Shown here piece by piece: positions 11,070-16,079 of a DNA stretch of 35,073 nt. Source of the stretch: Gloeocapsa sp. DLM2.Bin57 (GTDB lineage Bacteria; Cyanobacteriota; Cyanobacteriia; Cyanobacteriales; Gloeocapsaceae); assembly GCA_007693955.1 (NCBI GenBank), contig RECR01000042.1, positions 1 to 35,073 on the forward strand. Direction: 5' to 3'. The first letter of the stretch is position 1, and each line of letters opens with the position of its first letter. The position numbers and the translations under genes are program-made. Below the pieces are notes generated by a model, which was not told the DNA's origin, ran no database searches, and saw only the letters and a list, made by a program, of their open reading frames with translations.

Positions 11070-12179
11070 ATGCTTCAACAAGAAGAAGATACTGATACTA
11101 TAGAACTAATTAGTCAATTAGCTAATTATCAAAAACAGTTAAGAATCCTAGAACAAAAAATTCTTGGAGAACGTTTAGTCAGGGAAATAACTAAACAAAT
11201 TCATCAATCTCGCTCTCTGGACGAAATACTACATAAGGCAGTCGCAGAGTTAAGAGATTTTTTTCTAGTCAAGAGGGTAATTATCTATAGATTTAAAGCT
11301 GATTGGAGCGGAAGGGCGATCGCTGAGTCTGTAGAAACTAATTATTGTACTCTTGATAACCAAGACTTAATCCCTAGTCAATTTATCTCTCAATACCTAG
11401 ATTCTTATCGTCAAGGTAAATTTCTCCCTCATAACTCAATTATTCGACAACAAACCAATAAACTAGTTAATCATTTAATTATTCCAATTAGCAAAGAAAA
11501 AGAACTGTGGGGAATTTTAGTAGCTGATAATTTTCCAGAATCAAGACTTTGGGAAGCTTGGGAAGTAGAATTATTAGAAGACGTATCTCTTCATCTGAGT
11601 ATTGCTCTAACTCAAAATGAACTGTATCGAGAATTAGAGATAGCTAACGAAGAATTGCAAGAATTAGTATTTAAAGACGACCTAACTCAATTATATAATC
11701 GACGTTATTTTGATGAAGTAATGATCAAAGAATGGAAAAGGGCAATTAGGGAAAAACAACCAATATCATTAATTATGTGTGACGTTGACTATTTTAAACA
11801 ATATAATGATAACTATGGTCATCAAGCAGGGGACTATTGTTTACAAAAAGTTGCTCAATGTCTAGCCTTAAGTTGTCAAAGACCTACTGACGCAGTTTGT
11901 CGTTATGGGGGAGAAGAATTTGTTATCGTCTTACCTAATACTAAATATAGTGGAGCGATATATATAGCAGGACAAATACGTTCTCGTTTACGTCAATGTA
12001 AAATCCCTCACGAAAAATCTTTAGTTAGTCAATACGTTACTCTCAGTTTTGGTGTAGCTAGTTGTATCCCCCAAGTAAATGAAGATTATAATCTATTTTT
12101 AGAAAAAGCCGATAATGCTTTATTTACAAGTAAAAAACAAGGTAGAGATAGAATTATCTTAGCAGATGATGAAAATTAG
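11070..12179 (+). CDS. GAF-GGDEF diguanylate cyclase
   Basis: Makes cyclic di-GMP from two GTP. Residues 1-40 are a charged coiled-coil-like helix; about 45-180 are a GAF sensor domain (RSLDEILHKAVAELRDFF, RVIIYRFKADWSG). About 183-200 are a signalling helix, and 201-365 a GGDEF domain with DDLTQLYNRRYFDE, the catalytic signature GGEEF at 280-284 and an inhibitory site RPTD at 271-274, five residues upstream, so product feedback is expected. The GAF resembles phytochrome-type GAFs, but no obvious bilin-attachment Cys-His pair is seen, so the ligand is unknown. There is no membrane segment. The 3' end overlaps the DUF29 gene by 14 bp. Confidence 0.9.
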   Translation: MLQQEEDTDTIELISQLANYQKQLRILEQKILGERLVREITKQIHQSRSLDEILHKAVAELRDFFLVKRVIIYRFKADWSGRAIAESVETNYCTLDNQDLIPSQFISQYLDSYRQGKFLPHNSIIRQQTNKLVNHLIIPISKEKELWGILVADNFPESRLWEAWEVELLEDVSLHLSIALTQNELYRELEIANEELQELVFKDDLTQLYNRRYFDEVMIKEWKRAIREKQPISLIMCDVDYFKQYNDNYGHQAGDYCLQKVAQCLALSCQRPTDAVCRYGGEEFVIVLPNTKYSGAIYIAGQIRSRLRQCKIPHEKSLVSQYVTLSFGVASCIPQVNEDYNLFLEKADNALFTSKKQGRDRIILADDEN

Positions 12180-12631: not shown

Positions 12632-13597
12632 ATGAGTCATCGTCCAATTATTCTCGGGATAGTAGGAGACAGCGCCGCGGGTAAAACCACCTTAACCAAA
12701 GGAATAGCCAAAATACTAGGAGAAGAGAAAGTAACAATCATCTGTACTGATGACTATCATCGTTACGATCGCACTCAAAGAGCAGAATTAGGGATTTCAG
12801 CGCTACATCCAGACTGTAACTATCTAGACATTATTCAACAACACCTTAACTTACTACGTACAGGACAAGCAATCCTCAAACCGATTTATAATCACCATAC
12901 AGGAGAATTTGACCCCCCCGAATACATCGAACCGAGACAGTTTATCATTGTCGAAGGGTTACTAGGTTACTCGACTCGCGCGATGCGAGATAGTTATGAC
13001 GTCAAAGTATATTTAGCCCCTCCCGAATCCTTGCGGAGTTTGTGGAAAGTCAAAAGAGACACAGCTAAAAGAGGTTATAGCGAAGCAGAAGTATTAGAAC
13101 AACTGAGCAAAAGAGAAAACGATTCAGAAGCCTTTATTCGTCCTCAGCGTCAATGGGCTGACGTGGTAGTTAGTTTTTATCCACCCCATCCCGAAAAATT
13201 AGAAGATTTACTCTTAAACGTCAGATTAATCTTACGTCCAACTATTCCACACCCTGACTTTACTCATTTACTCACTCCTGGTGAATCCCACCTTAGCGAA
13301 GCGATTCGTTTAGAATTAGATCGAGATATGGGTAAACCAGTAGATGTTTTAGAAGTAGATTGTCACGCAACCTCCGAACAAGTTAAAGAGTTGGAAAGAG
13401 TTCTCTGTAACGAGATACCCTATCTAGGTCAATTTTGTAGTCTTGAAGGTAACCAAGATATTGGAGCGGTAATAGGTACTACAGGAGAAACTCTAGCCAG
13501 TTATCCTTTAGCTTTAACACAATTACTGATTACTTATCATATGTTAAAAGCTGCTCGGGTATCTGATTTCGTCCTTTCTCCTACGGGAAAACTTTAA
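12632..13597 (+). CDS. Phosphoribulokinase/uridine kinase-family P-loop kinase
   Basis: ATP-dependent kinase of the PRK/uridine kinase family, 321 aa. Visible are the P-loop GDSAAGKTT (12-20), the acidic TDDYHRYDR (39-47), YNHHTGEFDPPE (86-97), EGLLGYS (108-114) and the arginine motif KRDTAKRGYS. PRK phosphorylates ribulose 5-phosphate in the Calvin cycle. However, the canonical cyanobacterial enzyme has GDSGCGKST with a redox-regulated cysteine in the P-loop and EGLHPLYD; this protein has neither. It is probably a divergent paralogue that is not thioredoxin-controlled; its substrate may be ribulose 5-phosphate or another sugar or nucleoside. Its last four bases overlap the converging comFB gene. 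Confidence 0.8.
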   Translation: MSHRPIILGIVGDSAAGKTTLTKGIAKILGEEKVTIICTDDYHRYDRTQRAELGISALHPDCNYLDIIQQHLNLLRTGQAILKPIYNHHTGEFDPPEYIEPRQFIIVEGLLGYSTRAMRDSYDVKVYLAPPESLRSLWKVKRDTAKRGYSEAEVLEQLSKRENDSEAFIRPQRQWADVVVSFYPPHPEKLEDLLLNVRLILRPTIPHPDFTHLLTPGESHLSEAIRLELDRDMGKPVDVLEVDCHATSEQVKELERVLCNEIPYLGQFCSLEGNQDIGAVIGTTGETLASYPLALTQLLITYHMLKAARVSDFVLSPTGKL

Positions 13598-14136
13598 TCG
13601 CTTTCAAAATCAGGAGCGTAAGACTCAAGCAGATTACTAACTTGTTGTACTATAGTGCGATTAGGACCTATTGAGCCTTGAATTACGGTTCTTTCGGGAT
13701 AAAAATCAGGTTGATTGAGATAGCGTTTAATCGCCTCATCAACCTGTTGAGTAATTAGCTGATTTAATTCGGATCTAGCCCTTTCTCGTTGATAATTTGC
13801 TCCTTCTTCAGTAGTAGCGTATAGAGGAGGTAGGCGGTTTAAAGCATAAGCTGCAATATCGCCTACTTCTATCGTACAATCGCTAGTAGCTTCTATTTGA
13901 GCAATTCTCGTCAAAGCTTCACTCAGTATAAGTTCTTCCATCACATTGATAAAGTGTTTACGAGGCATCGCCACAATGTCTCCTGTTAATAATGCTCCCA
14001 TTAATTTGTCTAAAGCGATATATTCTTCAGCTGATAACTCTGTAGCAACTTCACAGATTTTACCAACTTCTGCTTCCATACTCGGAGTCAGATAACCATT
14101 TTTAAAAGCCTGATCTACAATATCACGTATATTCAT
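13594..14136 (-). CDS. comFB: ComFB-family protein (cyclic dinucleotide receptor-like)
   Basis: Member of the late competence ComFB family; cyanobacterial members have been reported to bind cyclic dinucleotides and to affect motility, competence or cell size. The family core spans about residues 60-125: HFINVMEELILSEAL, then CTIEVGDIAAYALNRLPPLYATTEEG. Residues 1-58 are a helical N-terminal extension, and 130-180 include a possible helix (QLITQQVDEAIKRYL) and a polar tail. The ATG at 14136 follows the M23 peptidase stop with no gap, so it is the third gene of an hfq-M23-comFB operon. A diguanylate cyclase lies 1.4 kb away (11070-12179). Confidence 0.85.
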   Translation of the reverse strand: MNIRDIVDQAFKNGYLTPSMEAEVGKICEVATELSAEEYIALDKLMGALLTGDIVAMPRKHFINVMEELILSEALTRIAQIEATSDCTIEVGDIAAYALNRLPPLYATTEEGANYQRERARSELNQLITQQVDEAIKRYLNQPDFYPERTVIQGSIGPNRTIVQQVSNLLESYAPDFESD

Positions 14137-14994
14137 TTACTCAACCCCCCCATAACGCCAAGGAACGGGATCTACGGAAATTCCATTCACATACAATCCC
14201 CAATGTAAGTGAGGACCTGTAGAAGCTCCCGTATTTCCTACTGTACCAATTTGCTGTCCTGCTTCGATGAAATCCCCCTCTTGGACGTGAATTTGTTCTA
14301 AATGGAGAAAAATACTCAAAACGCCTTGACCATGATCAATACCGATCGTATTCCCGTGGATACGGAAACCTTCTGATTCTCTACCGATGAGAGCAACTTT
14401 TCCCGCAGCCGGAGCAAAAACAGGAGAGCCTATAGCACCTGCGTAATCTACCCCCCTATGATAATACCCTTGAGCAAACTTACCATTAATATAACGTTGT
14501 ACACCAAATAAGGCTGAAACTCTAGCTGGACTTGGGCGTAAAAATGGACCATTCCAAAACTTTTCTGGAGTGACCAAGTCTTTAAATACCCTAACCTTGG
14601 TTAATTCTATTTCTGTAGCAGGCTCAGCGGCTGAACCAGTTAACCAAATACTTTGAGTGGGAAAATCCCTATTTTCTAACCAAATAGCTAGATTTTTGAC
14701 TTCTTCTCCATTGCTGACTTGGATAACTACTCTACCTGGATTATCTAAAGGACTAGTTGGTAAAAAAGCGCGATATGTTCCTAAAGTCTCATTGAGAGGG
14801 AATACGGGATAGTCTTGATCTCCTCGGGTAACGGTAAGTTCAGGTGAATCCACCTCGGTTTCGATAATGACGCTAATGGTATCACCTTGCTGAGGCTTTT
14901 CTGGACTTAGACGCACCGTTAAAGCGTCTAGGGGTAAATTAAAAACTATTGAGCTTGCTAAAGCGCAAATAAAACTATTTTGCCACCAGTTCAT
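14137..14994 (-). CDS. Secreted M23-family (LytM-type) metallopeptidase
   Basis: Predicted periplasmic peptidoglycan endopeptidase. With the ATG at 14994 the 285-aa protein starts with a signal-like helix (residues 1-24, WWQNSFICALASSIVFNL). Residues 25-115 form a beta-rich region with Ig-like character. The C-terminal M23 domain has zinc ligands His179 and Asp183 (HRGVD) and His264, with His262 as the partner catalytic residue (HLHW). All key residues are present, so it should be active. An in-frame TTG at 15042 would extend it into hfq and destroy the signal peptide, so I rejected it. It lies 8 bp after hfq and directly abuts comFB. Confidence 0.9.
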   Translation of the reverse strand: MNWWQNSFICALASSIVFNLPLDALTVRLSPEKPQQGDTISVIIETEVDSPELTVTRGDQDYPVFPLNETLGTYRAFLPTSPLDNPGRVVIQVSNGEEVKNLAIWLENRDFPTQSIWLTGSAAEPATEIELTKVRVFKDLVTPEKFWNGPFLRPSPARVSALFGVQRYINGKFAQGYYHRGVDYAGAIGSPVFAPAAGKVALIGRESEGFRIHGNTIGIDHGQGVLSIFLHLEQIHVQEGDFIEAGQQIGTVGNTGASTGPHLHWGLYVNGISVDPVPWRYGGVE

Positions 14995-15002
14995 TTTTTT
15001 AT

Positions 15003-15215
15003 CTAGGATTTTAACTTTAAATAAACGAGCGCTTGACGCCAAATTAAGGTTTTTTGTTCATATTGATCTACTAAACAGATACAATCATGATCTTGCCAGA
15101 GAATTGTTCCTACAAGTAGATCGTCTGTGACTAATTTTACTTCTACTTCTTGTTTATCTGAGATCAGAGTTTGCACTTGACGTATACTGGGTAAAGTTAT
15201 ATCAAATTCGCTCAT
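15003..15215 (-). CDS. hfq: Cyanobacterial-type Hfq
   Basis: Sm-fold hexameric protein. The 70-aa sequence follows cyanobacterial Hfq closely: LPSIRQVQTLISDKQEVEVKL, then DDLLVGTILWQDHDCICLVD. It lacks the RNA-binding YKH Sm2 signature and acidic tail of enterobacterial Hfq. In Synechocystis, Hfq acts at the base of type IV pili by binding PilB1 rather than as a general sRNA chaperone; the same role is inferred here. It is first in an operon with the M23 peptidase and comFB. It is divergent from dapF with only 21 bp between start codons; this hfq-dapF neighbourhood recurs in cyanobacteria. Confidence 0.93.
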   Translation of the reverse strand: MSEFDITLPSIRQVQTLISDKQEVEVKLVTDDLLVGTILWQDHDCICLVDQYEQKTLIWRQALVYLKLKS

Positions 15216-15236
15216 AAGTAAATTAAATAAGTAATC

Positions 15237-16079
15237 ATGTTAGAGTTTAGCAAATATCAGGGATTGGGTAACGATTTTATTTTGGTTGATAATCGTGATC
15301 AAAACAACCCTGTAATTACTCCTGAGCAAGCAATTCAACTATGCGATCGCCATTTGGGGATTGGTGCTGACGGTGTTATTTTCGCCCTTCCAGGAGAAAA
15401 GGATACTGATTACACCATGCGTATTTTTAATTCTGATGGTTCAGAACCAGAAATGTGCGGAAATGGCATACGCTGTTTAGCTAAGTTTATCGCTGATTTG
15501 ACTCAAAAAAACAGAAAAGGACATTTTTATCGTATTCAAACTCTAGCTGGTGTGATCACACCCGAATTATTAGCTAATGGACAAGTTAGAGTAGATATGG
15601 GTAAACCTGAATATCTCGCAGGTGCAATCCCTACTACTTTAGTACCTCCAGAGCAAAAAGTTATTAATGAATTACTAAGGGTAGCTGGACAAAACTGGGA
15701 TGTGACATGTGTAAGTATGGGGAATCCTCATTGTGTTATTTTTGTTGAAGACGTAGATAATATCCCCCTAGAAACCCTAGGTCCTCAATTTGAACATAAT
15801 CCTGTCTTTCCCCAAAGAATCAATACAGAATTCATACAAGTAATTAATAATAATTATCTCAAAATGAGAGTTTGGGAAAGAGGTGCAGGAATTACTCTCG
15901 CTTGTGGTACTGGAGCTTGTGCATCCGTAGTAGCAGGGGTACTAACCAGACGCATTGAATCAACTTGTACTGTGGAACTTCCAGGAGGACTTTTAGAGAT
16001 AGAATGGTCACCAGAAACTGAAAAAGTCTATATGACAGGTCCTGCTGAACTAGTATTTACTGGTAAAATAAATCTCTAA
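15237..16079 (+). CDS. dapF: Diaminopimelate epimerase
   Basis: Converts LL- to meso-diaminopimelate for lysine and peptidoglycan synthesis, a cofactor-independent two-base reaction. The two catalytic cysteines are Cys74 in MCGNGIR and Cys223 in [10 protein letters not shown]- and C-terminal halves show the typical pseudo-symmetry, and 280 aa is normal. ATG 15237 opens [18 protein letters not shown], which is characteristic. The leader shared with hfq is only 21 bp, so its promoter must lie partly inside hfq. It heads a run of closely packed plus-strand genes (3 bp to the next). Confidence 0.97.

Follow-up and report, generated by a model that had tools for sequence, protein, structure and literature searches.

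hfq, an M23 peptidase gene and comFB in Gloeocapsa

We analysed a 35,073-nt stretch of DNA (the window), contig RECR01000042.1 of the Gloeocapsa sp. DLM2.Bin57 assembly GCA_007693955.1, whose minus strand carries hfq, an exported M23 peptidase gene and comFB in that order, with gaps of 8 bp and 0 bp. The initial annotation had described this tight arrangement, and its reading frames, strand, order and spacings all proved accurate. The first gene, hfq (15003..15215, minus strand), encodes a 70-residue cyanobacterial Hfq-related protein (Pfam Hfq_1, E=1.3e-31) that scores 114 bits against NF047718, above the curated cut-off of 52, placing it with the cyanobacterial, PilB-binding type of Hfq. It is followed by a gene for a 285-residue, LytM-type M23 peptidase resembling Pgp3 (14137..14994, minus strand; Pfam Peptidase_M23, E=1.2e-30), and by a comFB/cdgR ortholog encoding a 180-residue protein of the cyclic-dinucleotide receptor family (13594..14136, minus strand; Pfam ComFB, E=4.3e-22). 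M23 and comFB abut directly, stop codon against start codon (TAAATG), an arrangement compatible with translational coupling. With hfq upstream, the genes co-directional, the gaps short and no opposite-strand gene between them, the window has the layout of an hfq-comFB operon, and from this layout we infer that all three genes are co-transcribed. A scan for promoters and terminators internal to the operon returned matches at chance level only.

Upstream, a 21-bp spacer (15216..15236) separates the start codon of hfq from that of the divergent dapF (15237..16079, plus strand), which encodes the diaminopimelate epimerase of peptidoglycan precursor synthesis, lies outside the operon and is kept in about 57 of 66 loci. 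The downstream end is marked by a convergent PRK/uridine-kinase-like gene (12632..13597, plus strand) that overlaps the end of comFB by 4 bp and is not conserved at this position in the loci of relatives. Some 1.4 kb beyond comFB, at 11070-12179 on the plus strand, the window also encodes a GAF-GGDEF diguanylate cyclase whose GGEEF motif is intact; such a gene is rare near hfq in relatives.

An exported M23 peptidase of the Pgp3 type

The M23 protein has a predicted signal peptide extending to about residue 24 and carries all the hallmarks of an active M23/LytM enzyme: the export signal, HxxxD and HxH motifs and a second catalytic His, with H179, D183, H231, H262 and H264 as zinc-binding and catalytic residues. 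The zinc-site residues are invariant in an alignment of 14 operon-type orthologs. Three of 33 aligned M23 orthologs have Asn in place of H262, the first His of HxH, and are possibly inactive or altered enzymes. A longer, 301-residue protein starting from TTG was rejected, since the ATG at 14994 yields the signal peptide common to the orthologs. The boundary of the ortholog group is sharp: every ortholog scores more than 413 bits, and no other M23 protein reaches 95. A looser search left this gap clean, ruling out diverged orthologs hidden by the score threshold.

An AlphaFold model of the protein (pLDDT 89.8) finds its best PDB matches in Foldseek, over most of its length, in Campylobacter Pgp3 (6jmy, TM 0.74) and P. 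aeruginosa 2hsi. We take the protein for a peptidoglycan endopeptidase of the Pgp3 type that retains its zinc site, its activity and specificity being predicted. Export is documented for the Anabaena ortholog: Alr3276 was recovered from the cell surface and its mature N-terminus sequenced by Edman degradation (PMC4103569), and this N-terminus aligns with the signal-peptide cleavage site that we predict for the window protein. Alr3276 also drops in the exoproteome, along with AmiC1 and AmiC2, when FurC is overexpressed (PMC10936207). The literature we searched contained no mutant of this M23.

The partner proteins ComFB and Hfq

The window ComFB has the ComFB domain together with the cyanobacterial N-terminal extension, and aligns colinearly with the solved c-di-GMP receptor 8hja (E=3.9e-51; residues 1-177 to 1-174). 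Because the AlphaFold model of this protein is poor (pLDDT 68), we left it unused and relied on 8hja instead. The two share the strictly conserved motif ALNRLPPLYA. By sequence the protein is thus a member of the cyclic-dinucleotide receptor family, with ligand binding predicted; its gene is the sole ComFB-domain gene in this genome, which also encodes a c-di-AMP cyclase. In genomes of family f17, ComFB-like domains (G127:C9:340383-340649 and G033:C10:90627-90908) are embedded in much longer open frames, of about 880-890 residues, which suggests that the receptor domain has been fused to other sequence.

ComFB is already published as a c-di-AMP/c-di-GMP receptor encoded in an hfq-comFB operon, and both normal piliation and the uptake of DNA depend on it (Samir et al. 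2025, PMC12313861); the slr1970-ssr3341 operon was noted in 2016 (PMC4770689). In Anabaena, the ortholog CdgR (Alr3277) controls cell size, partly via DevH (PMC13075795), and its gene, alr3277, is next in number to that of the M23 ortholog, alr3276. Hfq, the product of 1926 in S. elongatus, is found in complex with PilB and EbsA at the pilus base, and cells that lose it have no pili (PMC8092324); its interaction with the C-terminus of PilB has been described for Synechocystis and S. elongatus only (PMC8092324, PMC12288463). Thus, the initial annotation's placement of Hfq at the base of the type IV pilus and its portrayal of ComFB as a receptor tied to motility or competence are both borne out by the literature, and the messenger-pilus part of its idea is already published. 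The single mutant phenotype that it expected the genes to share is not what has been reported: hfq mutants lack pili and comFB mutants are hyperpiliated, although both lose transformability.

Gene order across cyanobacteria

We sampled 156 genomes from the phylum and took the 66 that encode this Hfq as a comparison set, examining the DNA around each hfq and locating M23 and ComFB orthologs genome-wide. The contiguous hfq-M23-comFB triad occurs in 8 of the 66, spread over 5 families, and in 5 more a single convergent gene intervenes between hfq and M23-comFB. Another 18 genomes have the M23-comFB pair with hfq elsewhere, 3 have an hfq-M23 pair, and 6 genomes of one family, including Synechocystis-like genomes, have hfq-comFB without any M23 ortholog; in the remainder the genes are apart or missing. 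The initial annotation had held that scattering of the three genes in most relatives would count against their forming a module, and the full triad is indeed missing from most. The pair nonetheless persists: of the 37 genomes with both M23 and comFB, 31, from 12 families, have the two side by side and co-directional, and all 31 have M23 first and comFB second on a single strand. Since M23 directly follows hfq in only 11 of 45 M23-bearing genomes, it is tied more closely to comFB than to hfq. In a second set, of named genomes, comFB directly follows M23 in 29 of 41 cyanobacterial M23 loci and in 0 of 39 of the nearest homologs from non-photosynthetic or non-cyanobacterial genomes.

Unconserved neighbours of hfq in the window provide an internal control: even with the window itself counted, no more than 2 of 66 loci have genes for the PRK-like kinase, a glycosyltransferase, rfbC or CLC in the vicinity of hfq. 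The recurrence of the triad, contiguous or interrupted, and of the pair within it is more than chance. The linkage of M23 and comFB across cyanobacteria is apparently unreported, and is the new part of the picture. A search of published main texts found no discussion of an M23 gene in the hfq-comFB operon and nothing relevant on Synpcc7942_1925 or on hfq with M23 in cyanobacteria; Fig. S5 of PMC12313861 may include the M23 gene.

The association is not obligatory. The M23 ortholog is missing from 21 of the 66 genomes, Synechocystis-like ones among them; 17 genomes keep comFB without an M23 ortholog and 8 keep M23 without operon-type comFB, so neither gene strictly needs the other. Six genomes of one family (f6; G022, G046, G081, G141, G145 and G147) retain the M23 ortholog but not an operon-type comFB, as though only the receptor had been lost. 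The ComFB proteins of the Synechocystis-like genomes with hfq-comFB and no M23 differ from 8hja at few positions. In most Nostocaceae the gap between M23 and comFB widens to 110-435 bp, which would leave room for an internal promoter. On a quick locus tree with modest support, M23-comFB adjacency requires 12 changes and the triad 5, as scattered tips; with arrangements changing this often we claim no ancestral one, and just 3 independent pairs are available for correlating the presence of M23 and comFB.

M23 and the type IV pilus

These distributions bear on the proposal, made in the initial annotation, that M23 opens the wall for pilus passage. On this reading the enzyme would be a dedicated hydrolase, cutting local holes in the peptidoglycan for the PilQ/PilMNO complex or the pilus fibre, and the operon would be one pilus-assembly module. 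Its operon partners are respectively required for pili (hfq, PMC8092324) and for normal pili (comFB, PMC12313861), the triad is found in divergent families, and there is a precedent in Mpg, an M23B enzyme without which Neisseria gonorrhoeae is not fully piliated (PMC11980366). However, a PilB homolog is present in all 66 genomes, that of the window included, and thus in all 21 that have no M23 ortholog, so M23 is not needed for the pilus machine in general; another LytM protein could substitute for it in those genomes, and the test is to that extent not absolute. Moreover, where the cluster breaks up M23 stays with comFB and not with hfq, and the protein matches Pgp3 over its whole length but Mpg only at the M23 domain. 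We therefore consider a dedicated pilus hydrolase unlikely, and this part of the initial annotation is not supported. Its interpretation as a whole is supported in part, by the published work on hfq-comFB and by the conserved M23-comFB pair.

The surrounding envelope neighbourhood

The hfq and dapF genes are divergent neighbours at almost every locus. About 19 of 58 loci leave just 12-41 bp between the two start codons, as in the window, and the two promoters must then overlap each other's genes. The gene between hfq and M23-comFB in interrupted loci encodes an antiporter of the KefB/CPA2 type that carries TrkA_N and TrkA_C domains; this gene adjoins hfq, convergently, in 26 of 66 loci (L032-L097); an example lies at L105:3240-5456. 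TrkA_C domains are of a known c-di-AMP-binding type, and two possible c-di-AMP targets, the antiporter and ComFB, may therefore share this neighbourhood. Downstream of comFB, 16 of 41 named loci (L098-L138) encode the ECF sigma factor SigG with an anti-sigma-like gene, and 12 of the 41 an opposite-strand YkuD L,D-transpeptidase. SigG corresponds to Synpcc7942_1923 and Alr3280 (PMC2758279). By locus number, S. elongatus thus runs 1926 (hfq), 1925, 1924 (comFB), 1923 (sigG), and Anabaena runs alr3276 (M23), alr3277 (cdgR), alr3280 (sigG). The order hfq-M23-comFB-sigG occurs in our set at G036/L061, matching the S. elongatus numbering, and this locus order suggests that Synpcc7942_1925 is the M23 gene.

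Conserved gene order can persist without functional coupling, and these surroundings allow a reading in which dapF, hfq, M23, comFB, the L,D-transpeptidase gene and sigG have simply remained together since an early cyanobacterium, the short gaps in the window reflecting local compaction. The antiporter, sigG, anti-sigma and YkuD genes are conserved around the locus too, the triad's scattered placement on the tree shows that arrangements shift often, and the published hfq and comFB phenotypes differ. Against this, M23-comFB remains intact in the 18 genomes where hfq has moved away, even as other neighbours disappear, and the pair keeps one order and one strand in every adjacent case. Mere inheritance of a neighbourhood is in our view possible but doubtful.

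Discussion

Our observations of gene order, linkage, active-site residues, predicted fold and M23 absences, taken together with the published functions of Hfq and ComFB and the published export of Alr3276, lead us to propose that M23, rather than being a gate that pili require, is a facultative enzyme of wall remodelling expressed together with ComFB. We assign this reading a probability of roughly 0.5. One transcription unit would supply Hfq, an exported Pgp3-type M23 and cytoplasmic ComFB/CdgR. Hfq would bind the PilB extension motor, and ComFB/CdgR would tune pilin and pilMNO levels and also, by way of the transcription factor DevH, the size of Anabaena cells. An exported M23 cannot touch Hfq or ComFB, which stay in the cytosol, and this leaves co-expression or a membrane intermediary as the route of any link. 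Co-expression is the likelier coupling, by which remodelling of the sacculus would keep pace with the growth and surface state set by ComFB. The purpose of M23 would accordingly be wall remodelling, perhaps for cell size no less than for pili, in an envelope neighbourhood of dapF, L,D-transpeptidase and SigG/anti-sigma genes, with hfq heading the M23-comFB unit here and in a small number of lineages.

A more speculative extension, which we regard as improbable, is that c-di-AMP/c-di-GMP status, through ComFB and its co-expressed Pgp3-like M23, sets peptidoglycan remodelling, such that a single receptor-hydrolase pair governs piliation, DNA uptake and cell size alike and M23 lies behind the cell-size branch of CdgR in Anabaena. 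ComFB/CdgR has been recognised as a receptor only recently, and there is no obvious connection between its effect on pili in unicellular cyanobacteria and its effect on cell size in Anabaena. The conserved wall hydrolase encoded beside it is a concrete candidate for the envelope side of both. In S. elongatus, this candidate would sit between two genes already under study.

Comparison with known systems

The window has the same end genes, in the same order and on one strand, as the hfq-comFB operons of Synechocystis (ssr3341-slr1970) and S. elongatus (Synpcc7942_1926...1924). S. elongatus has one locus number between 1926 and 1924, just as the window has M23 between hfq and comFB, whereas Synechocystis-like genomes have hfq-comFB without the M23 gene. 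The window ComFB is homologous over its full length to CdgR/ComFB (8hja; Alr3277; Slr1970), including the conserved ALNRLPPLYA. In published work these receptors act on cell size, via DevH, in Anabaena and on pili and competence in unicellular species. Mpg (NGO_1686) shares an exported M23 domain with the window protein and is a precedent for a pilus-linked wall hydrolase, but its structure (6muk) aligns only at positions 181-281 (Foldseek TM 0.42), and the window M23 lacks its N-terminal architecture. Pgp3 of Campylobacter jejuni (6jmx/6jmy) and P. aeruginosa 2hsi match the fold over the whole length (TM 0.74, 25% identity) and share the M23 zinc site, yet the window protein scores 113 bits against the Pgp3 model NF052530 of NCBIfam, below its cut-off of 300, and thus shares the architecture without belonging to that named family. 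Pgp3 itself comes from another phylum, and a Pgp3-like M23 adjoins comFB in cyanobacteria only.
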